Assembly (NCBI RefSeq): GCF_007290395.2
Contig: NZ_CP041656.2
Span: 1,550,001-1,614,000 of the forward strand
Direction: 5' to 3'
DNA length: 64,000 nt
Source of the DNA: Bradyrhizobium cosmicum
GTDB lineage: Bacteria; Pseudomonadota; Alphaproteobacteria; Rhizobiales; Xanthobacteraceae
Below, piece after piece: positions 994 through 41,025 of this stretch. Under the pieces are notes generated by a model. It worked only from the letters and a program-made list of their open reading frames with translations, had not been told where the DNA came from and did no database searches. A program made the translations under genes and the position numbers. Every line of letters starts with the position of its first letter. Within the stretch, counting starts at the first letter, position 1.

Positions 994-1062
994 GCCTCGG
1001 CTCCATTCGTAAGGCTCGTAACCTTTGTCGTGTTGTTCGGTCTCCTGCGCAGAGTGGTTCTG

Positions 1063-1826: not shown

Positions 1827-1841
1827 CAGCGGAGAGGCAAT

Positions 1842-2524: not shown

Positions 2525-2602
2525 TCCCAGGGGGTCATCGGCCACCACCCTCGCGTAAGCTTTGCACGGCAGATTGCGGGCCGGACCCTCTGCCGGTGAA
2601 CC

Positions 2603-4684
2603 ATGGCCGATACGTTAGCTGCTAGCCTGCCAAGCCCGCGCCGCTTCGGGGCGGATGCCTTTTTCGCCGGCGGGATCGTGGCCATGCTCACGATCTTGTT
2701 CCTGCCCATACCGCCGATCCTGATCGATCTCGGCCTCGCGATCTCGATCGCGCTTTCGGCGCTGATCCTGATGGTCGCGTTGTGGATTCAGCGGCCGCTC
2801 GATTTCTCCGCCTTTCCGACCGTGCTGCTGATCGCAACGATCCTGCGTCTGGCGCTCAACGTGGCGACGACACGTCTGATCCTGTCGCGCGGCGGGGAGG
2901 GGGAAACCGCCGCGGGCCATGTCGTCGCCGGCTTCTCGAAGTTCGTCATGGGCGGCGACTTCGTCATCGGTCTGATCATCTTCGCGATCCTGGTCACGGT
3001 GAACTTCGTCGTGATCACCAAGGGTGCGACGCGTATCGCCGAAGTCGGCGCCCGCTTCACCCTGGATGCCATTCCCGGCAAGCAGATGGCGATCGACGCG
3101 GACCTGTCCGCGGGCCTGATCGACGACAAGGAAGCCCAGCGTCGGCGTCGCGAGCTCGAAGAGGAAAGCTCCTTTTTCGGCGCGATGGACGGTGCCTCGA
3201 AATTCGTCCGTGGCGATGCCATCGCCGGCCTGATCATCACCGCGATCAACATCTTCGGCGGCATCATCATCGGCGTCACGCATCACGGTCTGACGCTGTC
3301 GCGCGCCGCCGACGTCTACACCAAACTCTCCGTCGGCGACGGTCTCGTAACGCAGATGCCGGCACTGATCGTGTCGCTGTCGGCGGGCCTTCTGGTCTCC
3401 AAGGGCGGCACCAGGGGTTCGGCGGAGCAGGCCGTACTGCGGCAGCTCGGCGGCTATCCTCGCGCGGTGTCGGCGGCGTCGTTGATGATGTTCGTGCTCG
3501 CCTTGATGCCGGGGCTGCCGATGGCGCCGTTCGTGCTGCTGGGCGGCGTCATGGCCTTCGTCGGTTACTCGCTGCCGAGGCGGCAGGCGGCGCGGGAGAA
3601 GAAGGAGCATGCGCGCAAGGCCGACGAGCGCGCCCAGGCCGATGCAAAGGAATCGGTCAAGGAATCGCTCAAGACCGCGGAGATCGAACTGGCGCTCGGC
3701 GGTCATCTTTCCGTCCATCTCCTGGGCTCGCGCAACGAGCTTGCGCACCGGGTCAGCAAGATCCGCAAGAAGTTCGCCAAGCAGTACGGCTTTGTCATTC
3801 CCGAGATCAAGCTGACCGATAATCTGTCGATGGATCCCAAGGGATATCAGATCCGGATCCACGACACGCGCATCGCCCATGGTGAACTGCGGCTGGGCGA
3901 AGTGCTGGTGCTCGTCGACAAGGACGGCAAGCCCGACGTGCCGGGCGAAGAGGTGATCGAGCCCGCCTTCGGCATGAAGGCGCTTTGGGTCGCGGAGGCC
4001 TTCACCGACGAAGTCAAGCGTCAGGGCTGCAAGCCGGTCGACAACCTGTCGGTGCTGCTCACGCATCTCAGCGAAGTGATCAGGGCGAACCTCTCGCAGC
4101 TATTGTCCTACAAGGACATGCGCGGGCTGCTCGACCGGCTCGATCCCGAATACAAGCGCCTGATCGAGGATCTCTGCCCTTCGCAGATCTCCTATTCCGG
4201 CCTGCTGGCGATCCTGAAGATCTTGCTGGCCGAACGCGTGTCGATCCGCAACCTTCATCTGATCCTCGAGGCCATTGCCGAGATCGCGCCCCATGTGCGG
4301 CGCTCCGAGCAGGTCGCAGAGCATGTGCGGACGCGTCTTGCGCAGCAGATCTGCGGCGATCTCTCCGAGAACGGCGTGCTGAACGTCATCCGTCTCGGCA
4401 ACCGCTGGGACCTGGCGTTCCACCAGAGCTTGAAGCGCGACGCCAAGGGCGACGTCGTCGAATTCGACGCCGATCCGCGCCTGATCGAACAGTTCGCGAC
4501 CGAGGCCAGTGCTGCGATCCGCAAGTTTACCGAGAACGGCACCAGTGTGGTTCTGGCGGTGACGCCCGAAGCCCGCCCCTATGTCCGGATGATCCTGGAG
4601 CGGGTGTTCCCGACCTTGCCGATCCTGTCGCATGTCGAGGTCGCGCGCAGCGCCGAGATCAGAGCTCTCGGAGCGATATCGTGA
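2603..4684 (+). CDS. flhA: Flagellar export gate protein FlhA
   Basis: The 693-residue protein has the normal FlhA size and layout: an N-terminal membrane domain (about residues 20-330, multiple helices) with the conserved FHIPEP-region equivalent [20 protein letters not shown], and a C-terminal cytosolic domain (about 350-693) that docks chaperone-substrate complexes. The segment [19 protein letters not shown] follows the signature, as in other FlhA proteins. It is an inner-membrane component of the flagellar type III export apparatus. The stop overlaps the GTG start of fliR by four bases (GTGA at 4681-4684). Confidence 0.97.
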
Positions 4685-5433
4685 TCAGCGGCCTTGCCGA
4701 CAGCGTGCTGGTGACGTTCATCGTGTTCTGTCGCATCGGCGCCTGCCTGATGCTGGTGCCCGGCTATTCCAGCGTCAACGTTCCGGCCCAGATCCGCCTG
4801 TTCGTCGCGCTCGTCACGACGTTCGCGCTGACGCCGATCCTGATCGCAATCCTGAAGCCTCTCACGGACAACGCCGCGCCGCTGACGCTTGCGCTCCTGA
4901 TCTTCTCCGAAATCGTGGTCGGTAGCGTCATCGGGCTTGGCGGGCGTGTGTTCTTCCTCGCGCTCCAGACCATGGCGACCGTGATGGCAAGCGCGATCGG
5001 GCTGAGCAACATCCCGGGCACGCCGGTCGGCGACACCGATCCGGCGCCGGCCCTGGTGCCGCTGATCATGGCGTCCGTCACCACCCTGTTCTTCATCACC
5101 GACCAGCATTGGCAGATTCTGCGGGGGCTGATGAACTCCTACGACGTCTGGCATCCAGGCAGCAGGCTCGGCGGAAGCATGGCTCTCGATCTGCTCGTCA
5201 GTCGCCTGTCGGAGGCGTTCGTTCTGACGCTGCGCATCACCAGCCCCTTCATCGTCTACTCGGTCATCGTCAACCTGGCGGTCGGCCTGATCAACAAGCT
5301 GACGCCGGCAATTCCGGTCTATTTCATCTCGGTGCCCTTCGTGCTGTTTGGTGGATTCCTGCTGCTCTACCTCACCAGCGACGAGCTATTGACGCAATTC
5401 ATGCTCGGCGTCTCGTCGTGGCTGGCGGAGTGA
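4681..5433 (+). CDS. fliR: Flagellar export apparatus protein FliR
   Basis: The 250-residue product begins at GTG 4681 ([20 protein letters not shown]), overlapping the flhA stop. It contains about six hydrophobic segments and the FliR-like stretches [32 protein letters not shown] and [14 protein letters not shown]. FliR completes the FliPQR export gate. The frame stays open upstream to 3985 only because it runs antiparallel-free through flhA in another frame; the GTG overlap and homology fix the start. The next gene begins at or just after its stop. Confidence 0.95.
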
Positions 5434-5438
5434 CGGCC

Positions 5439-5858
5439 ATGACGTCGCGCGCGGACAAGCTCGGCCGAATGGTCTCGCTCGTGAAGCTCCAGCTCCGGCT
5501 GTCCGAGTGGCAGCTGGCGCAATTGCGGCAGCAGGAGCGCAGCTTGCAGGACGAGCAGGAATGGCTGGTCGGTACGCTGAACGAAGGGAGTCCGCCGGCG
5601 GGCTCGTCGAGCGAATCGATCGCACGCCGCCTGAACAGGACGAGCGTTGGTGCGCGCGCGGTTCAGGCGCAGGCATCGCAGCAGCTCGACCAGGTCCGCT
5701 CGGAGAGCCGTCGTGTGAAACAGCTCGAGCAGGTCGCGAAGGCGGCGCTCGCCGACAAGCTTCGCGACGCGGAGAAGCGCTCGCTCGAGGAGATGACGGG
5801 AATAAGCCCTGCCGTGCGCGAGTGGACGCTGCGGCCAGCCAACCGGAAAAAGACATGA
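5439..5858 (+). CDS. Small coiled-coil flagellar-locus protein, FliJ-like by position and shape
   Basis: The 139-residue product (MTSRADKLGRMVSLVKLQLR) is almost entirely charged helix with heptad-like Leu/Gln spacing (LQLRLSEWQLAQLRQQERSL; RRVKQLEQVAKAALADKLRD), hydrophilic and without signal peptide. That shape, its size and its place between fliR and a rod-binding protein fit a cytosolic export chaperone or FliJ-type stalk protein, but I do not see a decisive family signature, so the role is inferred. An alternative GTG start at 5430 overlaps the fliR stop (GTGA) and would add three residues. The stop overlaps the next start (ATGA, 5855-5858). Confidence 0.6.
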   Translation: MTSRADKLGRMVSLVKLQLRLSEWQLAQLRQQERSLQDEQEWLVGTLNEGSPPAGSSSESIARRLNRTSVGARAVQAQASQQLDQVRSESRRVKQLEQVAKAALADKLRDAEKRSLEEMTGISPAVREWTLRPANRKKT

Positions 5859-6337
5859 TCGTGACAGCGACGCCCGACCTCGTCCTCGACGTCCTCGATG
5901 CCGCCGATCCCGTGACGCAGCGCGCAGCGACTGCGAAGCTCGATGCGCTGAAATCAGCCGACACCGATTTCGCCGCCACGATGGATGCCGAGGTCGGTAA
6001 AGCCAAGGCAGCGACCGGCGATCAAGCCGCGGCGAAGGTTGCCGAAGCGCAGTCGGGTGCGGTCAACGGGCCGCCCGTGCAGGTGATCAAGGCACCGGCG
6101 TCCGGAGAGGTGTACCGGAAGTTCGAGGCGTTCATCCTGCAGACCTTCGTCGAGACCATGCTGCCGAAGGAATCGGAGGAGGTCTTCGGCAAGGGCACGG
6201 CCGGCGGCGTCTGGAAGTCGATGCTGGCGGAACAGCTTGGTGCTCAGCTCGCGAAGGGCAAGGGCATCGGCATTGCCAAGCAGCTCGCCGCTGCGCATCC
6301 GGCGGGTCCGGACGTTACGGGCAAGGTCGGATCATGA
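5855..6337 (+). CDS. Rod-binding protein (FlgJ N-terminal-like / CheL type)
   Basis: The 160-residue protein ends with the rod-binding domain pattern seen in FlgJ N-termini and in alphaproteobacterial CheL-type proteins: YRKFEAFILQTFVETMLPKE followed by EVFGKGTAGGVWKSMLAEQL and GIGIAKQLAA. It lacks the muramidase half of enterobacterial FlgJ, as usual in this class, so it probably helps cap or assemble the rod in the periplasm, with a separate lytic enzyme. Residues 1-85 are an Ala-rich variable leader. It overlaps the preceding gene by four bases, so it is translationally coupled to it. Confidence 0.82.
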   Translation: MIVTATPDLVLDVLDAADPVTQRAATAKLDALKSADTDFAATMDAEVGKAKAATGDQAAAKVAEAQSGAVNGPPVQVIKAPASGEVYRKFEAFILQTFVETMLPKESEEVFGKGTAGGVWKSMLAEQLGAQLAKGKGIGIAKQLAAAHPAGPDVTGKVGS

Positions 6338-6376
6338 TCCGGAAATGGGCGACAGAAGTTGAGGGGTGAATTTTCA

Positions 6377-6889
6377 ATGCAGGCACAAGAAGGCGCGGCG
6401 GCTGTGGTGATGGAGCAGCTGGTCGGGGATACCGAGGCGATGACGACGGAGGCCGCATCGAGTGATGCGTTGTTGCCCGTGCTGCTGCCGAATGTCGGCA
6501 ACGAGGCGGAGATCGATGTCGCCGACGGGACCAGATCCGACGAGATGCGCGGCCTGCTGGCGGCGATCCGCCGGCTCGAGAGCATCGTCGAGGAGGAGAC
6601 GGCCGCGCTCGCGACGGGCAAGAAGGTCGATTTCGACGATTTCAGCGCGCGGAAGAGCCGCAGCATGCTCGAATTCGTCCGCCTGATGCGGGCGCGGATG
6701 CATCTCGGCAGCGAGGTCGAGATTACCGAGGAGATACAGCGGCTGCGCGAGAAGCTCGAGCGAAATCGTTCCATCCTCGAAATGCACTACGATGCGGTGC
6801 GCGAGGTCGCGACCATCATCGTCAGGGCGATCAAGGACGCCGAATCGGACGGTACCTACACGGGCCGTACAACGCAGGACGGAAAATGA
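6377..6889 (+). CDS. Flagellar-locus helical protein, FlgN-like
   Basis: The 170-residue product starts at ATG 6377 behind a GAGGGG ribosome site at 6361-6366; the upstream TTG 6359 has no such site. After a variable acidic leader (1-55) it is a long helical protein: LLAAIRRLESIVEEETAAL, then ARKSRSMLEFVRLMRA and IQRLREKLERNRSILEMHYD. This arrangement resembles the FlgN-type chaperone proteins annotated in rhizobial flagellar loci, which hold hook-associated proteins such as FlgL and FlgK before export. The match is by shape and context, so function is inferred. It overlaps the next gene by four bases. Confidence 0.6.
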   Translation: MQAQEGAAAVVMEQLVGDTEAMTTEAASSDALLPVLLPNVGNEAEIDVADGTRSDEMRGLLAAIRRLESIVEEETAALATGKKVDFDDFSARKSRSMLEFVRLMRARMHLGSEVEITEEIQRLREKLERNRSILEMHYDAVREVATIIVRAIKDAESDGTYTGRTTQDGK

Positions 6890-7344
6890 TCAGACTCGTG
6901 CTGGCCGGGCTCTGGGTATGCATCCTCACCGCGGGCACGAGCTATGGCGTGGCCTATTGGAAGGAAAACGGCACCCTTATGCCGGCAAAGGACGAATTTC
7001 TCGACGGACTTCAGTACCAGAAAACACGCGCGCTGAGCGTGCCCATGGTCGAGGGCGGCGGTGTGCAGGGTTATATCGTGGCGCGCTTCGTCTACACCGT
7101 CGAGGCGCGGACCATGCACCAGCTCAGCGTTCCGCCGGAACCGTTCGTCGTCGACGAGGCCTTCCGCAGGATCTATGCTGACGATCGTCTCGATTTCAGG
7201 AAGCTCGCCCGCTACGACCTCTCCATCCTCACGACTGCCATCAAGCAGCGCGTGAACGAGCGGATGCAGGCCGACGTCGTCCAGGACGTTCTGATCGAGG
7301 ACTTCAACTACGTTTCGAAGGAAGAATTCCAGCAGAAGCCCTGA
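6886..7344 (+). CDS. Single-pass membrane protein of the flagellar operon, possibly FliL-like
   Basis: The 152-residue protein has one N-terminal hydrophobic segment (about residues 3-24, LVLAGLWVCILTAGTSYGVA) and a periplasmic domain of about 125 residues. The C-terminus (ADVVQDVLIEDFNYVSKEEF) recalls the FliL ending, in which a beta strand with V-x-x-V-L-x-x-x-F follows a helix, but the similarity is weak. It is the last gene of the flagellar run, overlapping the preceding gene by four bases, so it is very probably flagellar. FliL proteins associate with stators at the basal body; that role is only a suggestion here. Confidence 0.55.
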   Translation: MIRLVLAGLWVCILTAGTSYGVAYWKENGTLMPAKDEFLDGLQYQKTRALSVPMVEGGGVQGYIVARFVYTVEARTMHQLSVPPEPFVVDEAFRRIYADDRLDFRKLARYDLSILTTAIKQRVNERMQADVVQDVLIEDFNYVSKEEFQQKP

Positions 7345-7389
7345 AGCGCTTCGAGCGAGGCGGATACCGGTTCGCTTCAAGACGCGTCA
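7344..7389. repeat. Short dispersed repeat, copy A
   Basis: This stretch just after the last flagellar stop shares TTCGAGCGA and ACCGGTTCGC, in the same order and spacing, with the reverse complement of 51124-51174. Two unrelated intergenic sites carrying the same imperfect sequence in opposite orientation indicate a dispersed element. No ORF crosses it. Confidence 0.6.
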
Positions 7390-7466
7390 GGACGAGTCTC
7401 TGGAGCCATGGCGGCTGCCGCGACGGGGCGGTAGCCGTGTTTTGCCGTGTCCGCCGCTGAACGTGC

Positions 7467-7502
7467 AACGGCCTCTGCGAAGGGTACTCCGCAGAGGCCG
7501 TT
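7467..7502. terminator. Strong hairpin between convergent genes
   Basis: Bases 7467-7479 (AACGGCCTCTGCG) pair perfectly with 7490-7502, leaving a 10-base loop (7480-7489). The 13-bp GC-rich stem lies between the convergent flagellar operon and lafR and can serve both strands. A long U-tract is absent on either side. Confidence 0.75.
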
Positions 7503-7532
7503 GTCGTCAGTTCGTGTCGGTGTCCCGCCGCG

Positions 7533-8303
7533 TCAGTTTCCGGCCGGGTACGCCGCCGGGGCGGCATGCGCCCTGTTCAGGAGCAGGCCGACTTCGTCGA
7601 GGTCCTGCATCGGCACGTCGATGGTCTCGCCAGCCGGGATGTTGATGCGGTATCCGACGTAGCGTCGGGCCACGATCGCATCGAAGCCGAGGCGGTCGCG
7701 GAGTTTCTTGCGCAGCTTGCTGACGTGGCTCTCGATCACGCTCTCGTCGAAGGTCGACTCGAAGATGCCGTAGACCGCGTTGAAGATCTGGGTCTTGGTG
7801 ATCCACTTGCCGTGGTTGCTGACCATATATTCGAGAATGCGCAGTTCGCGGCGGGGCAGGGTGAGGGCGTGGCCCGCGATCTCGGGGTCACGTCCGTTGA
7901 AGAAGACCTGGATCCTGGTCTCGCAGGGCCTCGGTAGCTCTCCCACCCGGCGGCGCGCGATCGCGGCCGTTCGGGCGAGGATCTCGCGCAGGTGAATCGG
8001 CACGTGCACGACATCGTCGACGCCCGATTCGAACAGCTCAAGCGTGTTTTTGAGCATTTTCTGGCTGCTCATGGCGATGATGGGGGCCGAAGAGCGCTTG
8101 CGCATCGCCCTCGGCAGGCTTCCGCGGGAATCGCAATCCCCGAGGAGGAAGGCGTCGACCGCTGCCAGATCCGATTCACTCGCAGATTGCAGCCATTCCC
8201 AGAATTCTCCGGAGGAGAATCCGATCGACGATACGCCTTCGCGAACAAGCCCTGCAACGTAGCTGTTCGTGACGCTCTCGCGATCATCAACGATAATATA
8301 CAT
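7533..8303 (-). CDS. lafR: Lateral-flagella master regulator LafR/FtcR-type response regulator
   Basis: The 256-residue protein matches the FtcR of Brucella and LafR of Bradyrhizobium diazoefficiens: an N-terminal receiver domain (MYIIVDDRESVTNSYVAGL, acidic pair D6-D7, candidate phosphoacceptor D50 in SDLAAVDAFLLGD) and a C-terminal OmpR-type winged helix (LPRRELRILEYMVSNHGK, SKTQIFNAVYGIF-like KTQIFNAVYGIFES, ESHVSKLRKKLRDRLGFD, RRYVGYRI). LafR/FtcR activates the lateral or single flagellar regulon. The start is set at ATG 8303 because FtcR proteins begin with this M-x-I-V-D-D; the frame is open upstream to 8525 but that part looks unrelated. It is convergent with the flagellar operon, from which it is separated by a hairpin. 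Confidence 0.9.
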   Translation of the reverse strand: MYIIVDDRESVTNSYVAGLVREGVSSIGFSSGEFWEWLQSASESDLAAVDAFLLGDCDSRGSLPRAMRKRSSAPIIAMSSQKMLKNTLELFESGVDDVVHVPIHLREILARTAAIARRRVGELPRPCETRIQVFFNGRDPEIAGHALTLPRRELRILEYMVSNHGKWITKTQIFNAVYGIFESTFDESVIESHVSKLRKKLRDRLGFDAIVARRYVGYRINIPAGETIDVPMQDLDEVGLLLNRAHAAPAAYPAGN

Positions 8304-9115: not shown

Positions 9116-10057
9116 ATGTTGTCCGATGGACAAGCTCGTCCCGGCGAGACCGCTGATGTTTCCGCGGCAGCGAAGCCGGGTCCGGAAGCGCGCGACAACA
9201 AGGACACTGCGGCGCGAGCGACCAAGCCTGCTGCGAGCTCGAAGCGAGCGTCGGCTGCGGCGAGCGATGAAACCCTGGCGAAGGAAGCGCTCGAGGGTCT
9301 GAAGCGTATTCGTGCCAAGGCGCGCCTCGACAAGATGGCGATACCCAAGCCTGCGCCGGTCGTGCTGAAGCCCGCGACGATCGTGGCCAAGCCGCCGCCG
9401 CCCCGTCCGACTTGGGTCGCGCCGCTCGCGACATTGGCGGTGGCCGCTGTTCTCGTTGTCTGCGCGTGCACCGGCGTGATCGCGTATCTCACCATGCAAC
9501 CCGCCCAGAACAACGTCGCGGCCAATACGGAGATAAGGAATCTGCGCGAGACCGTCGCGCAACTGCGCAAGCAAGTGTCGGGCGTGTCCGAAAATCTCGA
9601 CGGACTGCGCACCGCGGTCGATCAATCGAGCAAGGCGACCAACGACCGGTTTGGCCGTTTCGCCGAGAACCTGGATCGTATCGAACGAGTGAGCTCGTCC
9701 TCGACGGTGAAGCTCGACAAGCTCGCGCAGGCGCAGGCCCAGGCTCCGACGCCCGTGGCCTCACAACCGCAGCAGCCGATGCCAGTGATGGCCTCGGTCA
9801 CCGCGCCCGAGATCACCGGTTCGGTGGCTCCGTCCGAGCGCATGACGGCGCCGCGCAAGGTGATCAAGGGCTGGTCGGTTCGCCAGGCCTATGAGGGGAT
9901 TGCGATCCTCCAAAGTCCGAACGGCGTCATAGAGGCCGTGTTGGGACAGCAGGTGCCCGGCCTTGGCCGCATCGAGGAGATCAGGAGCGAGAACGGCCGT
10001 CTGGTGGTGGAAGCCAGCGGCGGCGTCATCTACTCGTCACGCAAGGCAGGGCCCTGA
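9116..10057 (+). CDS. Single-pass membrane protein with coiled coil and conserved C-terminal domain, function unknown
   Basis: The 313-residue product has a long Ala/Lys/Pro-rich cytosolic N-terminus (1-100), one transmembrane helix (about 102-126, APLATLAVAAVLVVCACTGV), a predicted coiled coil (about 135-205, NLRETVAQLRKQVSGVSENL and later heptads), a Gln/Pro linker, and a compact C-terminal domain (about 248-313) with GWSVRQAYEGIAILQS, GVIEAVLGQQVPGLGRIEEI and VEASGGVIYSS. I recall this W-x-x-x-x-x-Y-x-G-I-A C-terminal pattern from other unnamed Rhizobiales membrane proteins, but know no function. A GGAG ribosome site precedes ATG 9116 by nine bases. It converges on the MarR-like gene, with only 13 bases between them. 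Confidence 0.75.
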   Translation: MLSDGQARPGETADVSAAAKPGPEARDNKDTAARATKPAASSKRASAAASDETLAKEALEGLKRIRAKARLDKMAIPKPAPVVLKPATIVAKPPPPRPTWVAPLATLAVAAVLVVCACTGVIAYLTMQPAQNNVAANTEIRNLRETVAQLRKQVSGVSENLDGLRTAVDQSSKATNDRFGRFAENLDRIERVSSSSTVKLDKLAQAQAQAPTPVASQPQQPMPVMASVTAPEITGSVAPSERMTAPRKVIKGWSVRQAYEGIAILQSPNGVIEAVLGQQVPGLGRIEEIRSENGRLVVEASGGVIYSSRKAGP

Positions 10058-10070
10058 CGAGCGGAGCCTT

Positions 10071-10796
10071 CTACTGGCGGTGATGCTCGAAGCTGGTGCA
10101 TAGCAGGTCGATTTCGGGCTCCGCGATCGGTGCGCGGAACAGGCGGCAACTGAACTCGACCGTCGCCTTGCCGTCCGCAGCGGTACGATCTTCACGCAGG
10201 AAGATGCATCGCTTGCAAACGTCGGTATGGTGCCGTTGCTCCGCCGCGTCCGACTGATCCAACACGTGCCGGAGCGTGTCGCGAAAGCGGATCTTGCCAT
10301 CGTCGTCGAGAACGGCGATCGCCTCGACGAGCACGTTGACGGGGTCGCGCATCAGGAACTTCTTGCCCTGTTGCGTGACGCTGAGCAACACCGAGCGCTT
10401 GTCCGTGGCGGAGCGCTTGCGCTCGACATATCCGAGCCGTTCGAGTTCGCCGATGATGAAAGAGGCGGTGCCGCGTGTGGTGCCGACATAGCTCGCGAGC
10501 GCCGAGGGCGTCCGCGAGAAACGGTTGGCGCGGGAGAGGAAGCGCAGGGCCATCCATTCGCGGTCGCGCAGGCCGTGCTTGGTGCCTTCGAACCACAGGA
10601 TGCGGGCCATCTGCCCCAATAATTCAATCGATTCGCGAGCCAAAATCATCTCAAGTCCGGACCGGATAAAGCCATATTCAATTGGGTCTTTGGTCGTGCA
10701 ATCCGGGCGGGCGAGAATGAAGCTGTCGAGCGATGCTTCACTCGAAACGGGACGACTGGCCGCGCTTGGAAGACGCTTCTCCGTTCTGGAGATCAA
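10071..10796 (-). CDS. MarR-family-like regulator with four C-terminal cysteines
   Basis: The 241-residue product has a MarR-type winged helix in the middle (about 60-155: LRDREWMALRFLSRANR, ALASYVGTTRGTASFIIGEL, RLGYVERKRSATDKRSVLLSVT with the D-x-R wing). Unusually it continues about 85 residues past the wing and carries C194, C197, C217 and C233 (C-x2-C-x19-C-x15-C), which could bind a metal or an Fe-S cluster. The only in-frame start that keeps the N-terminal 50 residues is TTG 10796; the first ATG is at 10649, just before the dimerisation helix, so the start is uncertain. Target and ligand are unknown. Confidence 0.8.
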   Translation of the reverse strand: MISRTEKRLPSAASRPVSSEASLDSFILARPDCTTKDPIEYGFIRSGLEMILARESIELLGQMARILWFEGTKHGLRDREWMALRFLSRANRFSRTPSALASYVGTTRGTASFIIGELERLGYVERKRSATDKRSVLLSVTQQGKKFLMRDPVNVLVEAIAVLDDDGKIRFRDTLRHVLDQSDAAEQRHHTDVCKRCIFLREDRTAADGKATVEFSCRLFRAPIAEPEIDLLCTSFEHHRQ

Positions 10797-32785: not shown

Positions 32786-34483
32786 TCACTGCATCATCGC
32801 TGCCGCGATCTTTTCCGCCGACATCAGCACCGGAAAATTGGTGTTGGCGCATGGCACCACCGGGAAGATCGAGGCATCGACGACGCGCAGGCCCTGGATG
32901 CCCTTGACGCGGCCCTGGTTGTCGACCACCGCCATCGGATCGTCGGCGCGGCCCATGCGGCACGAGCACGAGGCATGCCACACGCCGATGGTCGCCTTGC
33001 GCACGAAGGCTTCCAGCGCCTCATCGTCGTTGATGACGTCGTCGAAGGTAAAGCCCTCGACCACGAAATTGTCGATCATGTAGTGACGCAGCGCCGCCGG
33101 TCCGTCCATCAGGGTCGCGGCGATCTTCGTCAGGATCCTGTTGGTGTTGTTGACCACGCCGATCTTGCGCACGCGGTCGGTATAGGAGGCGGGGAACGGC
33201 TTGTCCGTCACCGCCTTGACCACGTCGCTCATCTGCACCGCCGCCATCTTGCGGAAGCCGCTCATCAGGCGATCGAGGTCGCGCCGGTCGGACAGCAAAT
33301 TGAACTCGACGATCGGCTCGGCCGCGGGATCACGCGAGGCGAGCTTGACCTGTCCGGTCTCGGAATAGGTCTTGTTGACGAAGGTGAGCAGAGAGCCGAT
33401 CTGCTCCCCCACCGCGTGCCAGGCCGACTTGCTGAGCAGGACGACGAACATGTCGCCCCTGGGCACGCCCGGCAGCTCCGACGAGTAGCGCAGGCCGAGT
33501 TGCATGTGGCGCCTGGTATGCTCGTTCATGCGCGCGCCGCGGCGGACAAAGGACGACAGCGAGATCGAGGGATGATCCATCAGGCGCTGGCCGACGCCTT
33601 GCAGCCCCATCCGTACGGGAATGCCCATATCCTTGAGGTGGCCGACCGGGCCGATGCCGGCACGCAGCAGATGCGCCGGTGAATGAATCGCGCCGCTGGA
33701 GAGGATGATCTCGCGTCCCCGGAATTCCTGCTCGCGACCGTCCACGATGGCCTTCACGCCGACGCATTGCGTGCCTTCGAACAGCAATTCTCGAACTTGC
33801 GTGTTGGTAGAGATCGTGAGGTTGGTGCGCTTGCGCGTGTCGCGGTCGAGATAGCCCATTGCGGCCGAGACGCGCTGCTCGGCCTGGTTGGAGTGCGTGA
33901 CCGGAAAGAAGCCGTCGACGAATTCTCCGTTCTGGTCCGGCAGGAATTGGTGGCCGGCCTGCTGGAAGGCTTCGGCAAAAGCCTGCGAATGCCGTGTCCA
34001 GTGCTCGCGCGGAATTCTGCGTACCGGAATTCGGCCGTCCTTGCCGTGATACGGCCCGTCGAAATCGAGATCGCGCTCGACCTTCTTGAAGAAGGGCAGC
34101 ACGTCGTTCCACGTCCACCCCTCGGCGCCGCGCGCGTCCCATTCGTCATAGTCGGTCGGCGCGCCGCGGTTGGCCATCTGGCCGTTGATCGACGAGCCGC
34201 CGCCCAGCACGCGCGCCTGCTCGTATTTGCGTAAGGGAGGACGGCTTTCGTGCGGATTGTTGTGGCTGACGACCTGGGTCGTGACCTTGAGCTCGGTCCA
34301 GTGGAAGCGCGGGTCGAAATAGGCGGTGCCCGGATAGCTGTCCCTGATCTCCGCTGGCTCGTTGCCCGGCGGCGTATCCTGTCCAGCCTCGCACAGCAGG
34401 ACCTTGTTGGCGCTCTTCGCGGAGAGCCGGTGGGCCAGCACCGACCCCGCCGAGCCGCCGCCCACGATGATGTAGTCGTACAC
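32786..34483 (-). CDS. GMC-family FAD oxidoreductase (choline dehydrogenase-like)
   Basis: The 565-residue protein has the N-terminal ADP-binding motif YDYIIVGGGSAGSVLAHRLS, GMC signature 1 as ARVLGGGSSINGQMANRG, GMC signature 2 as ILSSGAIHSPAHLLRAGIGP, and a C-terminal active-site region with GVWHASCSCRMG and VVDASIFPVVPCANTNFPVL. This family covers choline, alcohol, and polyethylene-glycol dehydrogenases. The substrate cannot be set from sequence; no betaine aldehyde dehydrogenase or transporter is adjacent. It stands alone between the TetR gene and the phosphoesterase cassette. Confidence 0.9.
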   Translation of the reverse strand: MYDYIIVGGGSAGSVLAHRLSAKSANKVLLCEAGQDTPPGNEPAEIRDSYPGTAYFDPRFHWTELKVTTQVVSHNNPHESRPPLRKYEQARVLGGGSSINGQMANRGAPTDYDEWDARGAEGWTWNDVLPFFKKVERDLDFDGPYHGKDGRIPVRRIPREHWTRHSQAFAEAFQQAGHQFLPDQNGEFVDGFFPVTHSNQAEQRVSAAMGYLDRDTRKRTNLTISTNTQVRELLFEGTQCVGVKAIVDGREQEFRGREIILSSGAIHSPAHLLRAGIGPVGHLKDMGIPVRMGLQGVGQRLMDHPSISLSSFVRRGARMNEHTRRHMQLGLRYSSELPGVPRGDMFVVLLSKSAWHAVGEQIGSLLTFVNKTYSETGQVKLASRDPAAEPIVEFNLLSDRRDLDRLMSGFRKMAAVQMSDVVKAVTDKPFPASYTDRVRKIGVVNNTNRILTKIAATLMDGPAALRHYMIDNFVVEGFTFDDVINDDEALEAFVRKATIGVWHASCSCRMGRADDPMAVVDNQGRVKGIQGLRVVDASIFPVVPCANTNFPVLMSAEKIAAAMMQ

Positions 34484-34744
34484 GATTGGCGTTTCCTCTT
34501 GTTCTTGTCCGGGAAGCGTAGCGCGTTATTTTCCCGAGGTCACGCCGGCATTGCCGCGACAGGTCGTACGGCGTCGCTTGATCGGCCACTTCGATTGTGT
34601 ATTCTTTCCGCCAGCGCCGATTTGATCCTCAGCTTGCGGGCGCTTTACCAAATGCAGCTAAAGAGACCCGACTGAAAAGACGTGTCAGTCCTGCATTCTC
34701 CCGCATAGCGAAACCGATCGGCCGTTCCGAATGGGGTGGGCCAT

Positions 34745-35491
34745 ATGAGATTTGCTGCCATCGCGGACGTTCACGGAAATCGTCCGGCGCTTGAAGCGGT
34801 TCTTGCGGATATCGCTGTGCTCGGAATCACTGACATCGTGAACCTGGGTGACCATGTCAGCGGCCCGCTCGAGGCGGCCCGAACCGCGGACCTGCTGATG
34901 GAGCGGGGCCTCCCGTCAATCAGGGGCGATCAGGATCGAATCCTCGTGGAGCTCTGGCAGGCCGGTGGTTCGACCCGCAGCGATTTCCGCGAGCTCGAGC
35001 GCAGGCACTTCGACTGGATGGCCAGCATGCCGTCCACGCTGACATATCGAGAGCGGGTGTTCCTGTGCCACGGATCGCCAGGCGATGATGCCGCATTCTG
35101 GCTCGACCACATCGCCGACGACGGCTGCGCGCATCCGAGCGGAATTGATTCCATCGAGGCTGGCGCGGAGGGGATCAACGCCGAGATCATCCTGTGCGCC
35201 CACACGCACATTCCGCGCGTGGTGCGGCTGAGGGATGGCCGGCTGGTCGTCAATCCCGGCAGCGTGGGATTGCCCGGCTACGACGGGAAGCTGCCTGTGC
35301 CCTACGTGGTCGAGGTCGGCACGCCGCATGCGTGCTACGCGATTCTGGATCGTGCGGGAGGAGGCTGGTCCGCGACGATGCGGTACGTGCCGTATGACAC
35401 CACGGCCATGGCCGGCCTGGCGCGAGCCAAGGGTATGCTGACCTGGGCGAGCGCGATTGCGACGGGCTGGGTGCAGCGGGCGGGCAAATGA
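34745..35491 (+). CDS. Calcineurin-like metallophosphoesterase (YfcE/MPP type)
   Basis: The 248-residue protein has the metallophosphoesterase metal motifs in order: IADVHGN (D and H), NLGDHVSG (GD-x-x), a modified third motif IRGDQDRIL where most relatives have G-N-H-D/E, CHGSPGD, and CAHTHIPRV with NPGSVGLP. The RGDQD variant replaces the usual Asn-His pair by Asp-Gln and is seen in a phosphodiesterase-like branch, so activity should not be assumed. ATG 34745 follows GGGGTGGG. It lies 311 bases upstream of the beta-CASP operon and might belong to the same cassette. Confidence 0.85.
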   Translation: MRFAAIADVHGNRPALEAVLADIAVLGITDIVNLGDHVSGPLEAARTADLLMERGLPSIRGDQDRILVELWQAGGSTRSDFRELERRHFDWMASMPSTLTYRERVFLCHGSPGDDAAFWLDHIADDGCAHPSGIDSIEAGAEGINAEIILCAHTHIPRVVRLRDGRLVVNPGSVGLPGYDGKLPVPYVVEVGTPHACYAILDRAGGGWSATMRYVPYDTTAMAGLARAKGMLTWASAIATGWVQRAGK

Positions 35492-35802
35492 TGCTGCTTG
35501 GCCAACGATTGCCTATGAATCTGAGTTCGAGGAAGCCAGACTGGAGCTTCGAAGTGTTGCGTGAGGGCAACGCGGGAGTTTTTTTGGTCTAAAGGCGCAA
35601 TTTCTCGGGCCCTCGTTTGAATATAGAGAGATGATTGCCAATCTCGGAGTTGTTGCCCAATGAATCCTGGACCCCTGAACGACCACGACAACTCCAATTC
35701 TCCCGAACGGGGCTTCGATCGGCACGCGCCGGGTCAGCGGGAGAGGCGCGAGAGCCAATTTCATCTGCGGCCGCGTCGCTAGGCCAGATTCAGGGACCGC
35801 AG
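35492..35802. other. Intergenic region upstream of the nuclease operon
   Basis: No recognisable gene is present. The frame of the downstream nuclease is open back to 35635, but this part has no homology to the MBL fold. The region includes T-rich (GGGAGTTTTTTTGG near 35576-35589) and AT-rich (TTTGAATATAGAGAG near 35617) stretches and probably holds the operon promoter. Confidence 0.5.
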
Positions 35803-37068
35803 ATGCAAAGTGAATCGTCGGGCGCTTTCCGCGCGCGGATACACCGCGGCGCTCAACAAATTGGCGGGTCCTGCATCGAGCTGGAAGCAGGCGGCCAAAG
35901 GATACTGCTGGATTTGGGCTTGCCTCTCGCCGCCGCCGACGTCTCGGACGCTCTGCTGCCTGACGTGGAAGGGCTGCGCGGCGACCATCCGGGCCTGAAC
36001 GCGATCGTCATCTCGCACGGACATGGCGATCACTGGGGATTGCTGCCGGTGTGCAGGCCGGGGATTCAAGTGGTCATGGGAGCGGCAACGGCGCGCATCT
36101 TGAGCGCGGCCGCCCCATTCGTACCGAACTCCTTCGTCCCGAGCGTCTCGCAGCACCTCAGCGACCGGACTGTCCTGCAGATCGGTCCCTTCCGCATCAC
36201 GCCGTTTCTCGTCGACCATTCGGCCTATGACGCTTACGCCCTCCAGATCGAGGCTTGTGGGCGTCATCTGTTCTACAGCGGCGATATCCGCGCTCACGGT
36301 CGAAAGGCCGCGTTGTTCGAGCGATTGGTGAGCAAGCCGCCCGAACGCATCGACACGATGCTGATGGAAGGCTCGAGCCTTGGCCGGTTGAACGAGCACG
36401 ACCGTTTCGAGAACGAAGATGCAATCGAGGCCAGGCTGGCCGAGAGCTTCGGCCGGCCGGGATTGGTATTGATCTCGGCATCGGCGCAGAACATTGACCG
36501 GCTGGTCAGCATCTACCGGGCCTGCAAGCGGACGGGACGGACGCTACTGCTTGATCTCTATGCGATGGAGATCCTGAGGGCCACCGGCAATCCGAATCTC
36601 CCCGCTATCGGTTGGCCGAACCTGTCCGTTTACGTTCCGGAATACCAACGGCGCCACATAGCCAGGAACCAGCGCTTCGACCTTCTCGAACCCTACAAGT
36701 CGGCGCGCATCTTTCGCGAGCATATCGCGGAGATCGCCGACAAGGCTGTCATGCTGTTTCGGCCCGCAATGGCGCGCGATCTCGACCTGGGTCATTTATG
36801 GGACAACGCGAGAGCGATCTGGTCGCAATGGGACGGATATCTGCAGGCCGGCCCCGGTGCGAAACTCAAGGTTGAACTGCTGGAGCGTGGAATCCAGCTC
36901 GAAGTCATCCACACGTCGGGACACGCCAGCATTGTCGACCTCAAACGGCTGGCGAGCGCGCTCAATCCGGGTCGGCTCGTGCCCATCCACACGTTCCACG
37001 GCGAACGATTCTCCGACTATTTCGACAACGTCACCCGCCGCGCGGACGGCGAGTGGTGGGATGTCTAA
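35803..37068 (+). CDS. Beta-CASP metallo-beta-lactamase nuclease (RNase J-like)
   Basis: The 421-residue protein has the MBL motifs: motif 1 D38 (LLDLGLP), motif 2 SHGHGDH (H72, H74, D76, H77), motif 3 in VDHSAYDA, and motif 4 in FYSGDIRAHG. After residue 200 it has the beta-CASP insert, with ISASAQNIDRLVSI (motif A-like), LEVIHTSGHASIVDL (motif B histidine) and LVPIHTFHGERF (motif C histidine). This is the domain order of RNase J and CPSF-73 ribonucleases, although it lacks RNase J's extra C-terminal domain. Relatives process RNA or DNA ends. An opening MRIHRGAQQIGG-type strand sets the start near ATG 35803, after AGGGA. It is the first gene of a three-gene operon. Confidence 0.88.
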   Translation: MQSESSGAFRARIHRGAQQIGGSCIELEAGGQRILLDLGLPLAAADVSDALLPDVEGLRGDHPGLNAIVISHGHGDHWGLLPVCRPGIQVVMGAATARILSAAAPFVPNSFVPSVSQHLSDRTVLQIGPFRITPFLVDHSAYDAYALQIEACGRHLFYSGDIRAHGRKAALFERLVSKPPERIDTMLMEGSSLGRLNEHDRFENEDAIEARLAESFGRPGLVLISASAQNIDRLVSIYRACKRTGRTLLLDLYAMEILRATGNPNLPAIGWPNLSVYVPEYQRRHIARNQRFDLLEPYKSARIFREHIAEIADKAVMLFRPAMARDLDLGHLWDNARAIWSQWDGYLQAGPGAKLKVELLERGIQLEVIHTSGHASIVDLKRLASALNPGRLVPIHTFHGERFSDYFDNVTRRADGEWWDV

Positions 37069-37104
37069 GGCAATTGTTTTTGAGACCGCGAAGGGGAGTA
37101 ATAA

Positions 37105-38022
37105 ATGGGAAGTGCAATCTCCAGCAAATTCATCGGGGATCTACAGGACGGAGGACTGCTGTCCGAACTGACGAAGAAGATCCAAAGCGACGACACGCTG
37201 ATGCTGGCGCTTCGCGGTCACTACATCAACGTCTACTATCGCGGCGGAAGCATTCTGCACATTTCGGAGCAGGCTAGCGGGTACTCTGCGAAGTTCGACC
37301 TGAACTACGCCAGGGGAAAGGACCTCGGTCTGCCTGCCGGCGCTATTCAAACTCCGGCTGATTGTTCGAACTGGGTCACGGCGTTGCCGAGGCTCAAGGA
37401 AGCCATGAACTTCCATTTTGCGGAGACGCGCAAATCCGAGCGCGAGTTTCAGCAACTCGCCGCGTGGGAGAACAACAGGTCGGTCCTGTCGAACGACACG
37501 GAGTATTTCATCACGGACATTGAGTTTGCCGATCGCGATCACAGCGCGCGGCTCGACATGGTCGGACTCAAATGGCCGAGTAACCAGCGCAAGGACGAGA
37601 CCCGCTGCACGCCGGTCCTCATCGAGATGAAGTATGGCACGGGTTCCTATGACGGGGCCGCCGGTATCGCAAAGCACATCGAGGATCTCGGCAAGATCCT
37701 GGGCGACTCCGTCAAGCGCGAAAGCCTGAACAAGACGATCGAGGATCAGTTCGACCAGTTGATGAAGCTGGAGCTGGTCGATTTCACGCCGCACAAGAAA
37801 TATGGCCGGGCCGTCGTTTCCGGCAAGCCTGAGGTGGTCTTCCTGCTGGCGAACCACAACCCGCGCAGCAGAAGGCTGTTGAATATCGTCAACGAGATCG
37901 AAGAGTCCGAGCATTTCGACCTTCGCTTCTTCACGGCGAGCTTCGCGGGCTATGGAATGCATGATGCGTGTATGCTCAAGCTCGAGGAGTTCAGGGCGTT
38001 GCTGCGGCAGTTCGCGGGTTAG
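37105..38022 (+). CDS. Putative PD-(D/E)XK-like nuclease, unnamed family
   Basis: I do not recognise a named family. The 305-residue protein begins with an alpha/beta region that includes HYINVYYRGGSILHI (YYRGG at 44-48), then a helix with E113 (SEREFQQLAAWENN). A beta-sheet core follows with SARLDMVGLKW (D151) and TPVLIEMKYGTG (E174-M-K176), the D-x(22)-E-x-K arrangement expected of PD-(D/E)XK nucleases, and a helix after it (AGIAKHIEDLGKIL). The C-terminal half has PEVVFLLANHNPRS. AAGGGGAG precedes ATG 37105 and the gene lies 36 bases after the MBL gene. The ribosome site of the phosphatase overlaps its stop. A nucleic-acid role together with the beta-CASP protein is inferred. Confidence 0.75.
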   Translation: MGSAISSKFIGDLQDGGLLSELTKKIQSDDTLMLALRGHYINVYYRGGSILHISEQASGYSAKFDLNYARGKDLGLPAGAIQTPADCSNWVTALPRLKEAMNFHFAETRKSEREFQQLAAWENNRSVLSNDTEYFITDIEFADRDHSARLDMVGLKWPSNQRKDETRCTPVLIEMKYGTGSYDGAAGIAKHIEDLGKILGDSVKRESLNKTIEDQFDQLMKLELVDFTPHKKYGRAVVSGKPEVVFLLANHNPRSRRLLNIVNEIEESEHFDLRFFTASFAGYGMHDACMLKLEEFRALLRQFAG

Positions 38023-38031
38023 GAGTGAGCT

Positions 38032-38724
38032 CTGGCGCATTCACTGACCTTTGCCGTCGGCGATATTCACGGCTGTCTTGACGAACTGCTCACGCTGCTC
38101 GCCGTGTGCGAATTGGCGTGCCCGGACGAGGACGCGCGGTTCATCCTTGTCGGTGATTACATCGACAGAGGTCCCGACAGTCGTGGGGTCATCGACTTCC
38201 TGATCCGCCGGCAGTCGGATCAGGAGGGACGTTTCATCTGCCTGCGCGGCAATCATGAGGAGATGCTGGTCCGCGCTGCGGGCAGGCATCGCGCGGATCG
38301 CGATCTGATGAGCTGGTGGGGGAATGGCGGCGAGCGGACCCTCGACAGCTACGGCGCCGATGATCCCAGCGATTTGCCTGCCGAGCACCTGGCATGGCTT
38401 CGACGGCTTCCGTTGGTGCACAAGGACCGGCATCGCCTGTTCGTCCATGCCGGCATTCGTCCCGGCGTGCCGCTGTCTCTTCAGTCGCAGGAGGATCTGC
38501 TCTGGATCAGGGAGCCCTTCCTCTCGTCCGCCGACGATCACGGGCTGCTCGTCGTGCACGGGCATACGCCGGTGAGATCCGGGCGCCCCGATCTGCGGGC
38601 CAATCGATTGAATCTGGACACCGGCGCATGTTTTGGCGGCCCGCTGAGCGCCGCGGCATTTTCCAGCAGCCGGCGTGGGCCGGTGATGTTTGCCACCAGT
38701 CTGGGCGATATCGTCCGCTTGTAG
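38032..38724 (+). CDS. PPP-type serine/threonine phosphatase or dinucleotide phosphatase, probable CTG start
   Basis: The 230-residue protein has complete PPP motifs: FAVGDIHGCLDELL (D11, H13), LVGDYIDRGPDS, CLRGNHEEM, FVHAGIRPG and VVHGHTPV. They match phosphatases such as PrpE and ApaH-like or bacterial Ser/Thr phosphatases. No ATG, GTG or TTG exists between the upstream in-frame stop (38026) and GDIHG; GTG 38104 would remove motif I. CTG 38032 lies six bases from AGGAG (38021-38025), which overlaps the nuclease stop, so CTG initiation is proposed (CTG 38044 is an alternative). It may dephosphorylate nucleic-acid ends, nucleotides or proteins; the context suggests the first. Confidence 0.85.
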   Translation: MAHSLTFAVGDIHGCLDELLTLLAVCELACPDEDARFILVGDYIDRGPDSRGVIDFLIRRQSDQEGRFICLRGNHEEMLVRAAGRHRADRDLMSWWGNGGERTLDSYGADDPSDLPAEHLAWLRRLPLVHKDRHRLFVHAGIRPGVPLSLQSQEDLLWIREPFLSSADDHGLLVVHGHTPVRSGRPDLRANRLNLDTGACFGGPLSAAAFSSSRRGPVMFATSLGDIVRL

Positions 38725-38754
38725 CCGGCTGACCGTGCGGTAGCGCGAACGGCC

Positions 38755-39513
38755 CTAATGCGTCTCGTGAAACCGGGCCAGGAACGCCTTCAGCCGGTCG
38801 CTGCGCGGCTGGCGGATGGTCTCTTCCGGCGTGCCGATCTCGGCCATGATGCCGTCGTTCATGAAACCGACGCGGGTGGAGACGTCGGCCGCGAAGGCCA
38901 TCTCGTGCGTGACCAGCACCATGGTCATGCCTTCGGCGGCGAGGCTGCGGATGACGGCGAGCACTTCACCGACGAGTTCGGGATCGAGCGCCGAGGTCGG
39001 CTCGTCGAACAGCATCACCTCGGGCTTCATCGCCAGCGCGCGGGCGATCGCGACGCGCTGCTTCTGGCCGCCGGAGAGCCGGCTCGGAAAGGCATCGGCC
39101 TTGTCGGCGAGGCCGACCTTGGCGAGCAGGTCGCGGCCGAGCGCGTCGGCGTCGGCGCGCGCCATGCCTTTCACCTGCACGGGCCCTTCGGTGACATTGG
39201 CGAGCACCGACATGTGCGGGAACAGATTGAAGTGCTGGAACACCATGCCGACATGTTCGCGCAATTGCGCAAGTTGCGCGTCCTTTGGCGCGCGAGGGCC
39301 TTTGCCGAACGCAAACCTGTGTGATCCAATCGCAAGCTCGCCCTGTTGCGGCATTTCCAGCAGGTTCAGGCAGCGCAGGAAAGTTGACTTGCCGGAGCCG
39401 GAGGCGCCGATCAGGGTGACGACTTCGCCGCGCGCGACCGAGAGCGAGACGCCCTTGAGCACCTCGTGGTCGCCGAATGCCTTGTGGATGTTGTCCGCGA
39501 TCAGGGCCCTCAT
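38755..39513 (-). CDS. Polar amino-acid ABC transporter ATPase (GlnQ/HisP type)
   Basis: The 252-residue ATPase has Walker [11 protein letters not shown]-loop [17 protein letters not shown], signature [16 protein letters not shown], Walker [17 protein letters not shown] and [10 protein letters not shown], all typical of the polar amino acid family. It starts at ATG 39513, overlapping the permease stop by four bases, and ends close to the phosphatase gene, with which it is convergent. It energises the importer encoded upstream at 39510-41025. Confidence 0.95.
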
Positions 39514-40172
39514 CGGTGTGCTCCCATCCTGAGCTCGATCCGGTCGGCGACCAGGGTCAGCGGGAACAGCACGACGAAATAGAGGATGGCGATCGTGGTG
39601 TAGACCTCGAGCGGCTTGTAGCTCGATGCGGTGATGACAGTGCCCTGATACAGCAGGTCGCCGACCGCCACCACGGACACCAGCGAGGTGTTCTTCAACT
39701 GCATGATGGTCTGGTTGATGAAGGAGGGAATCATCACCTGCGTTGCCTGCGGCAGCACGATGCGGCGGAAGATCTTGCCGCGTCGCATGCCGATGGCGCG
39801 TCCGGCCTCCCATTGACCGACATCGACTGCTTCTATGCCGCCGCGGAAAATCTCGGCGTAGAACGAGCCGGCATAGAGCGACAGCGCGAGGAAGCAGGCC
39901 ATTGCCGGCGACATGTCGACGCCGATCAGGACGGGCAGGGCGTAATACATCCAGATCAGCTGCACGAGCAGCGGCGTACAGCGGAAGATTTCGATGTAGA
40001 GACGCAGCGGCACCGAAACCCAGCGCGGTGCCGTCGTGCGCAGGATGCCGACGACCAGTCCGATCGTGAGGCCCGCGACCACCGTGGTCACCGTGTAGAA
40101 CAAGGTGACCAGGAGCCCTTGCCAGATCAGGCCCCAATACGGCTTGAGCGCCGCGAACTCCCAGACATACAT
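39510..40172 (-). CDS. Polar amino-acid ABC transporter permease
   Basis: The 220-residue membrane protein has about five hydrophobic helices and family signatures: [40 protein letters not shown] and the EAA loop [20 protein letters not shown]. It is the only permease in this locus and probably works as a homodimer, as in some GlnP-like systems. It is 13 bases after the binding protein gene. Confidence 0.93.
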
Positions 40173-40185
40173 CGTCGGATAGCCG

Positions 40186-41025
40186 TCAGAACTGCACTTC
40201 TGGCGGGAGATCGTCGGGGGTGAGCCCGACCGCCTGGAAGCCCTTCAGCATCCATTCGCGGGTTTGGCCCATCGCGCGGTTGTAGTCGGCCCAGGCGCTG
40301 AGGAAATCCTTGTAGCGGCGGTCGCTCTCGGCGCGGATGCCCATGTTGGTCGGCAGCGTCAGCAGCGGGCGCGGGATCGCGAGATCGCCGAGGTTCGGAT
40401 TCTTCTTCAGGGTCGAGACCGAGAGCACCGCCAGCGAGACGTTGCAGTCGGCGCGGCCGGTGGCGACGGCAAGGATTGCCTCGTCGCGGTTCTTGAAGCC
40501 GAGGATGGTCGCCTTCGGGCAGTAGCGGCGTGCGATCGTCTCGTGCGTGGACCCGATGTCGACGGCGATCTTGACCTCGGGCTTGTTCAGCTCGGCCCAG
40601 GTCTGCGGCTTGGCAAAGCCCTTCTTGGTGATGACAGTGAAGGAGTGCACCAGGATCGGCGTCGAGAAGTCGATGACGAGGGCGCGCTCCGGGGTCGGGT
40701 TCACGGCAAAGGCGAGGTCGACCTTGTCGGCCTGCAGGTCGAGGATCTGGTTGCCCCAGGTCGATTCCAGCGTCTCGACCTTGGCCCCGAGCTTGCTCGC
40801 GATGTCGTTGGCCATGTCGATGCAGGCGCCCGACCACGTGCCGGTGGCGAGATCCTTATGGAAGTAGGGCTCCTGGCCCACGATGACGGAAACGCGCAGC
40901 ACGCCATTCTTCTTGATGCGGTCGAGCGTGGAGGTCGGTGCGGTGTCGGCCTTGGCTGCGCTGCTCGCGGCGGCCATCGCGGCGCCTGCCAGCGCGACGG
41001 TGGTGAGTGCATCCCTGCGATTCAT
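40186..41025 (-). CDS. Amino-acid ABC transporter periplasmic binding protein
   Basis: The 279-residue protein has a signal peptide (cleavage near KADTA) and the family 3 pattern: TLDRIKKNGVLRVSVIVGQE, CIDMANDIASKLGAKVETLE, WGNQILDLQADKVDLAFAV, and EVKIAVDIGSTHETIARRYC. The ligand is an amino acid or similar polar compound. It is first in its operon, divergent from the catabolic operon at 41263; the shared 237-base region contains inverted copies of a TGTATTCAG motif. Confidence 0.92.
   Translation of the reverse strand: MNRRDALTTVALAGAAMAAASSAAKADTAPTSTLDRIKKNGVLRVSVIVGQEPYFHKDLATGTWSGACIDMANDIASKLGAKVETLESTWGNQILDLQADKVDLAFAVNPTPERALVIDFSTPILVHSFTVITKKGFAKPQTWAELNKPEVKIAVDIGSTHETIARRYCPKATILGFKNRDEAILAVATGRADCNVSLAVLSVSTLKKNPNLGDLAIPRPLLTLPTNMGIRAESDRRYKDFLSAWADYNRAMGQTREWMLKGFQAVGLTPDDLPPEVQF

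Follow-up and report, generated by a model that had tools for sequence, protein, structure and literature searches.

A beta-CASP nuclease and a PD-(D/E)XK-like protein form a conserved gene pair, a candidate mobile nuclease module in Bradyrhizobium cosmicum

Introduction

Three closely packed genes on the forward strand of Bradyrhizobium cosmicum, at positions 35803–38724 of a 64,000-nucleotide stretch of its genome (the window; contig NZ_CP041656.2, positions 1,550,001–1,614,000), raise the question of whether a metallo-beta-lactamase (MBL) nuclease, a protein with residues typical of PD-(D/E)XK nucleases and a PPP-type phosphatase belong together, and what they would jointly do. An initial annotation had read them as one operon for nucleic-acid surveillance, repair or defence. 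Here, we find that the conserved unit is the pair formed by the first two genes, termed MBL and T, which is widely conserved with its active-site residues intact. The earlier interpretation therefore holds for this pair, a real unit that lies on an insert and has mobile homologues, and fails for the set of three. The pair is rare and patchy, spread over several phyla and partly mobile. Judged from its sequences, it probably constitutes a mobile two-component nuclease module, with the two proteins most likely attacking invading nucleic acid. Coordinates refer to the window unless a locus (L) is named.

Results and discussion

Catalytic residues of the MBL and T proteins

The reading frames had been delimited correctly: MBL (421 amino acids; 35803–37068, forward strand) is followed after a gap of 36 bases, as claimed, by T (305 amino acids; 37105–38022, forward strand), and the phosphatase gene ends at 38724. 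The assignment of MBL to the beta-CASP nucleases of RNase J/CPSF type is borne out by a Pfam match to Lactamase_B_2 (E = 6e-13; RMMBL fell slightly below its cut-off) and by residues invariant in 17 sequences (H72/H74/D76/H77, H139, D161, E189, H370 and H396). These comprise MBL motifs II–IV and beta-CASP motifs A–C, with motif names following PMC7458816 and their assignment to the residues made in this analysis. Among proteins of known structure, profile matches were obtained to EF2904 (2az4; E = 2e-35), RNase J (1e-27) and CPSF-73 (1e-15). EF2904, the nearest solved relative, is termed a hypothetical beta-CASP protein in the available text of PMC3095777.

Although MBL shares the catalytic motifs of RNase J and CPSF-73, including the motif C histidine, at 421 amino acids it lies far below the cut-off of the RNase J model TIGR00649 (32.7 bits against 400, covering positions 8–249 of 546), and the host genome, a single contig of 7.27 Mb, encodes a separate true RNase J at C1:3409961. 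Cas14 of Type VII CRISPR provides a precedent for an MBL-beta-CASP effector in an immune system, but the score of MBL in its model, 27.7 bits, is far from the cut-off of 800. According to the parts of PMC7458816 that deal with motif C, this position is histidine in CPSF-73 and valine in Artemis, and a Val-to-His change in SNM1A left selectivity unaltered; the histidine in MBL is therefore a weak hint of a preference for RNA.

T had no Pfam match up to E = 1, and neither its sequence nor its profiles found a meaningful match in the PDB, which distinguishes it from recognized PD-(D/E)XK nucleases, as do a conserved N-terminal region ('LALR..YIN.YYRGG') and the MBL gene that usually adjoins it. 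The likeness to these nucleases lies in an E..D-x-E..D..E-x-K pattern that is invariant in 13 homologues (E112, E114, D138-x-E140, D151 and E174-x-K176); the catalytic E/D..D..E-x-K arrangement is also kept in six plasmid relatives and in 12 further relatives, and T is linked by profile match to diverged MBL partners. The core residues D151, E174 and K176 had thus been identified correctly, whereas residue 113, which had been named with them, is an arginine, the invariant acids being E112 and E114.

Pairing of MBL and T

We searched for the pair from both sides. A T search of 265 genomes of the same genus returned seven matches, and the six full copies all adjoin MBL; the seventh (G105, L013 ~10053–10184) comprises only the first 45 T residues and is a decayed copy. 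Outside Bradyrhizobium, T was found at seven loci (Deltaproteobacteria, a Shewanella metagenome-assembled genome, Chloroflexi, Zixiibacteriota, Desulfobulbus, Acetobacteraceae and Coriobacteriales), of which five adjoin MBL, one with a broken MBL and one (L022) with an intervening open reading frame of 149 amino acids. The remaining two are L019, which begins at a contig edge, and L021, which has no MBL. Several tandem repeats (units of 28, 33 and 66 bases) lie upstream of the T gene of L021, at 6401–7164.

Conversely, a set of 62 MBL loci was compiled without the use of T in their selection, comprising 17 loci at the family level (8 of them from one genus), 14 at the class or phylum level, 8 from plasmids, 7 from viral contigs and 16 from other phyla. 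The window itself, plasmid H4 (identical to the H3 match), L103 (identical to L102), a second listing of G813, and G1262–G1264, found through T, were left out. Profile searches placed a T-superfamily gene adjacent to or fused with MBL at 36 of the 62 loci (12/17, 10/14, 6/8, 3/7 and 5/16 for the five sets in the above order). Since the six plasmid partners themselves went into profile T2, the evidence for those six is a profile–profile match; T3 derives from T2 matches of the family-level loci. The T family and the plasmid partners are remotely related (hhalign probability 95.3, E = 2e-8), with 'R..YIN.YYRGG' and the catalytic residues aligned. Across the five branches T1, T2, T3, V1 and V2, 8 of the 10 hhalign comparisons scored 90.9–100, whereas T3–V1 (1.9) and V1–V2 (6.6) showed no direct match.

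Other MBL loci carry partners outside the T superfamily that contain a D..E-x-K stretch (for example L065, L072, L067, L068, L071, L104, L108, L136, L146, L148 and L150); most of these have no profile match to T, and the label PD-(D/E)XK-like denotes for them the motif and inspection by eye. A motif pattern identified a same-strand PD-(D/E)XK-like neighbour or fusion at 45 of the 62 loci, compared to 4 of 246 distant open reading frames, which include spurious frames, and 1 of 92 control proteins; having been composed after the partners were seen, the pattern serves as a description. It was adjusted after the results of an earlier, looser version, which had recovered 8 of 9 alternative partners but only 3 of 12 T3 sequences, and which also hit 4 of 54 neighbours along with 3 of 60 size-matched controls. 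By profile or pattern together, a partner is present at 51 of the 62 loci, with the qualification that the pattern matches in L032 (a phosphoesterase beside MBL) and L074 (ankyrin-like by reading) may be due to chance. The partners in L102 and L107 were recognized by eye only, and the D..E-x-K neighbour in L102 is on the opposite strand.

Three further observations bear on the relationship between the two proteins. They are joined in single reading frames in L145 (747 amino acids) and L147 (751 amino acids), with MBL spanning residues 1–432 and T beginning at 442 (E = 3e-19 and 3e-17); in L075, MBL is fused to the initial portion of a T-like protein, and in L135 to a stretch that resembles the L136 partner by eye. 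Both gene orders occur, and all 31 scored pairs have MBL and T encoded on one strand. Finally, the pairwise distances of the two proteins correlate (Mantel r = 0.48, with 0 of 9999 permutations as high), also when four close Bradyrhizobium pairs are omitted (r = 0.38, again 0 of 9999), as determined for 32 chosen pairs, of which 31 were scored (L109 dropped out), near-duplicates and some contig-edge pairs having been excluded.

The recurrence of the arrangement in several phyla indicates that the neighbourhood is more than chance. That the genes are unrelated neighbours with separate functions has next to no probability: the PPP gene and a further phosphoesterase gene (see below) may be loosely attached, but for MBL and T we rejected chance pairing in view of the adjacency by profile, the fusions in L145 and L147, the uniform strand and the correlated divergence.

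Distribution and mobility

An earlier sample of 100 genomes contained T once, in the genome of the window itself. MBL surveys (profile A4, E up to 1e-60, each count including the genome on which the survey was centred) yielded 15 of 248 genomes at the family, 8 of 385 at the class and 9 of 398 at the phylum level, and 8 of 198, 4 of 178 and 7 of 171 genomes in the phyla of the Coriobacteriales, Desulfobulbus and Chloroflexi loci, respectively. MBL was also found on nine plasmid records and on eight viral contigs from IMG/VR.

The genomic context in B. cosmicum was defined by comparison with a close relative (G025), whose sequence matches the window at 93% identity in two flanks (32956–34562 and 38750–40998) and has 145 unrelated bases between them. 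Relative to this empty site, the window carries an insert of 4187 bases (34563–38749) that holds the MBL, T and PPP genes as well as a metallophosphoesterase gene at 34736–35491, so the extent of the unit had been drawn too small. The insert has no recognized phage or plasmid genes, and no repeats or integrase were noticed in the junction sequences, in which no systematic search was made. The ratio of nonsynonymous to synonymous substitution rates (dN/dS) between the window and G207 is 0.14 for MBL, 0.14 for T, 0.13 for PPP and 0.11 for the metallophosphoesterase; all four genes thus appear to be retained by selection.

The mobile occurrences prompt an alternative in which the pair works on behalf of the element that carries it, through RNA or DNA processing, host takeover or the exclusion of competitors, and not in host defence. 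In its favour, gpA terminase genes lie near the pair on viral contigs L106 and L108 and serine recombinases on L104 and L105, other copies are on plasmids, and L068 has a terminase nearby and a DNA methylase adjoining. A neighbour of 1102 amino acids in L102 was read as a tape-measure protein, for which Pfam gave no support. Yet the pair also occupies a chromosomal insert without recognized phage or plasmid genes, where it is under purifying selection, and none of 50,697 phage records matched MBL (E = 1e-10); we regard a role for the element as unlikely.

A toxin–antitoxin-like addiction module, with one protein holding the other in check, would also fit a pair of neighbouring genes carried on plasmids and inserts, and decayed copies (L013, L018 and L049) show turnover. 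Against this stand the size of the proteins, both of approximately 300–430 amino acids with active-site residues kept, the one-frame fusions in L145 and L147, and the fact that both gene orders are common, which together make an addiction module highly improbable. In L018 (~7103–7991) and L049 (1474–2744), MBL is split over frames or lacks a start, suggesting turnover of the module.

The PPP phosphatase and other phosphoesterases

PPP phosphatases carry the motifs GDxHG, GDxxDRG, GNHE and HGH. The translation of the third gene (38032–38724, forward strand; ~230 amino acids) contains all four (GDIHG, GDYIDRG, GNHE and HGH) and matches Pfam Metallophos (E = 3e-17), in agreement with its initial assignment. 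It resembles ApaH, PrpE and bacterial Pnkp in these motifs and in NCBIfam matches (E = 1e-19 to 1e-10), but is below the cut-off of all six models listed, including the equivalog cut-offs of PRK00166 (70.6 bits against 176), PrpE (51.4 against 340) and Pnkp (57.5 against 750).

The frame has no ATG, GTG or TTG upstream of the metal-binding GDIHG motif, and the start codon is likely a CTG at 38032–38034, six bases 3' of a GGAG. As had been noted, this ribosome site overlaps the T stop (GGAG within TAGGAG), so that stop, GGAG and likely start all fall within 38020–38034 of the forward strand. The GGAG-N6-CTG arrangement recurs in L008, L009 and L010. An in-frame TGA two codons 5' of the CTG in the window, L009 and L010 leaves no other start before GDIHG in these three; L008 has in-frame GTG and TTG codons besides the CTG, and L011 and L012 have an ATG.

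PPP lies downstream in five of the six Bradyrhizobium T loci and is divergent beside the sixth; at a seventh Bradyrhizobium locus (L034), where MBL has a different partner, the opposite strand carries a PPP homologue split over two frames. The phosphatase accompanies MBL in all seven Bradyrhizobium MBL loci examined, but no homologue was found beside MBL outside this genus in the loci scanned, which did not include the viral loci and L135–L150. Co-occurrence of all three genes in distant taxa, proposed at the outset as a check, is therefore seen for MBL and T, which recur in several phyla, and not for PPP, and we rejected a conserved three-gene operon. Other members of the Metallophos superfamily follow and overlap MBL on Cereibacter and Prevotella plasmids. 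Since PPP was found beside MBL only in Bradyrhizobium and these other members follow MBL in two further lineages, a phosphoesterase is a recurring accessory of the module and not part of its core.

The metallophosphoesterase at 34736–35491 (forward strand; Metallophos_2, Pfam E = 8e-15) lies upstream of MBL in the window and likewise in G207. DNA related to this gene, with 75–78% identity, is present at other sites in several members of the genus, and its association with the module is uncertain.

A nuclease, a phosphatase and a PD-(D/E)XK factor could also mend or clear damaged RNA under stress, a reading with which the RNase J-like MBL, its motif C histidine and the resemblance of PPP to ApaH and bacterial Pnkp are compatible. 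RNA repair or end-processing nevertheless appears improbable, given that the insert has no ligase or kinase, that PPP was found only in Bradyrhizobium, that the host has its own RNase J and that the distribution is rare and partly mobile.

Evidence bearing on defence

A role of the pair in defence against phages or mobile elements is plausible from its context. Upstream of T in L022 of Desulfobulbus alkaliphilus (3–7559) are a methylase matching HmaB, a PLD-helicase and an IetA-like AAA ATPase, and in L019 Nmad3 adjoins the locus, with an HNH protein nearby. Using PADLOC models, 134 families were matched by 120 proteins near 20 module loci, compared to 30 by 119 proteins taken from 20 regions of these genomes as controls. 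This comparison counts families and not proteins, is contributed to by generic models (UvrD-like, WYL and sensor-kinase-like), and unintentionally includes the PPP of five Bradyrhizobium loci in the neighbour set (A5). Ten large neighbours scanned singly gave PADLOC matches for one, and these were generic; the enrichment near defence genes is for this reason weak, and we treat it as suggestive only.

Several other observations, like these single scans, weigh against defence by a nuclease pair. None of the PADLOC-DB 2023 families matched MBL, T or PPP at E up to 1. The genes flanking the insert in the window are metabolic by reading (a GMC-type oxidoreductase and an ABC transporter). The T locus L021 has no MBL within 8 kb upstream or 5.8 kb downstream, nor genome-wide at E = 1e-30, and 11 of the 62 MBL loci have no partner by profile or pattern. 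In addition to the negative phage search with MBL, direct searches of phages, plasmids and viral contigs (some also with T-family alignments) did not find T, so the evidence for carriage by phages comes from the eight IMG/VR contigs.

A close precedent for such a pairing is found in the trypsin–MBL pairs with HamM (Hachiman, AVAST, Lamassu and DRT), which, as far as the available text of PMC12799240 describes them, likewise place an MBL-fold nuclease and a partner gene in antiviral loci. There, HamM is ComEC-like, does not cleave RNA and is paired with a trypsin-like protease, whereas the MBL described here is of the beta-CASP type with a nuclease-like partner; no protease match was found among MBL, T and PPP in Pfam or NCBIfam, which sets them apart from HamM pairs. 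A metallophosphatase has been validated in other systems (PMC13092281), in the accessible portion of which the terms MBL, lactamase and beta-CASP do not occur. No description of the MBL–T pair was found in the open-access literature, a restriction that makes this no proof of absence.

A possible mechanism

For the favoured reading, a nuclease module directed at invaders, we propose the following scheme. MBL would be a hydrolase of the beta-CASP group, akin to RNase J and CPSF, and T a PD-(D/E)XK-type nuclease with an N-terminal domain of its own, the two possibly working as one complex, as the fusions in some genomes suggest. T would cut or recognize phage or plasmid DNA or RNA, and MBL would degrade RNA or the cut ends. 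In Bradyrhizobium, the ApaH-like PPP may strip 5'-phosphates or caps and so provide entry for an RNase J-like 5' exonuclease. Capped bacterial RNA is a substrate of ApaH, and RNase J prefers RNA with a 5'-monophosphate. Dinucleoside polyphosphates serve as RNA caps in Escherichia coli, according to the text available from PMC7044304. This background led us to the order of events in which PPP would prepare 5' ends, MBL degrade, and T cut or recognize.

A bolder version, possible but doubtful, would make the pair a new class of immune module, in which one beta-CASP RNase swaps PD-(D/E)XK partners in the manner of restriction specificity parts. The partner would sense or nick the invader, the RNase would destroy its transcripts and, in Bradyrhizobium, PPP would first uncap RNA 5' ends, amounting to a bacterial antiviral pathway of decapping plus 5' exonuclease. 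Taken singly, the folds are established or probably so. Neither their pairing nor the fusions nor the exchangeable partner is described in the open-access literature searched.

If the proposal is correct, the pair would represent an undescribed and widespread system that couples an RNase J-type enzyme to a PD-(D/E)XK nuclease, in which partners are exchangeable and natural fusions exist. These variants would form a series at hand from which the partner's target could be worked out, and the chemistry of bacterial RNA decay would be linked to immunity. A function might further be suggested for the related beta-CASP protein EF2904, whose structure is solved and which the text cited above calls hypothetical. 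Copies on viral contigs and plasmids raise the prospect that the module influences which elements share a host.

Additional neighbours of the pair

Two further kinds of gene recur near the pair. A 'GIFW..HYR' family of 124–158 amino acids with 'GIFW' near its start, four members of which had no Pfam match when scanned, occurs beside MBL or T in L019 (214–615), L023, L025 (4564–4959), L026 (4558–5001), L027 (4525–5001), L029 (6244–6618), L034 and L045. PAD_porph genes, which are agmatine/arginine deiminase-like, adjoin MBL in two unrelated loci (L066 7819–8907 and L108 5063–5971), and on the Prevotella plasmid L032 the annotation places another within a few genes of MBL.

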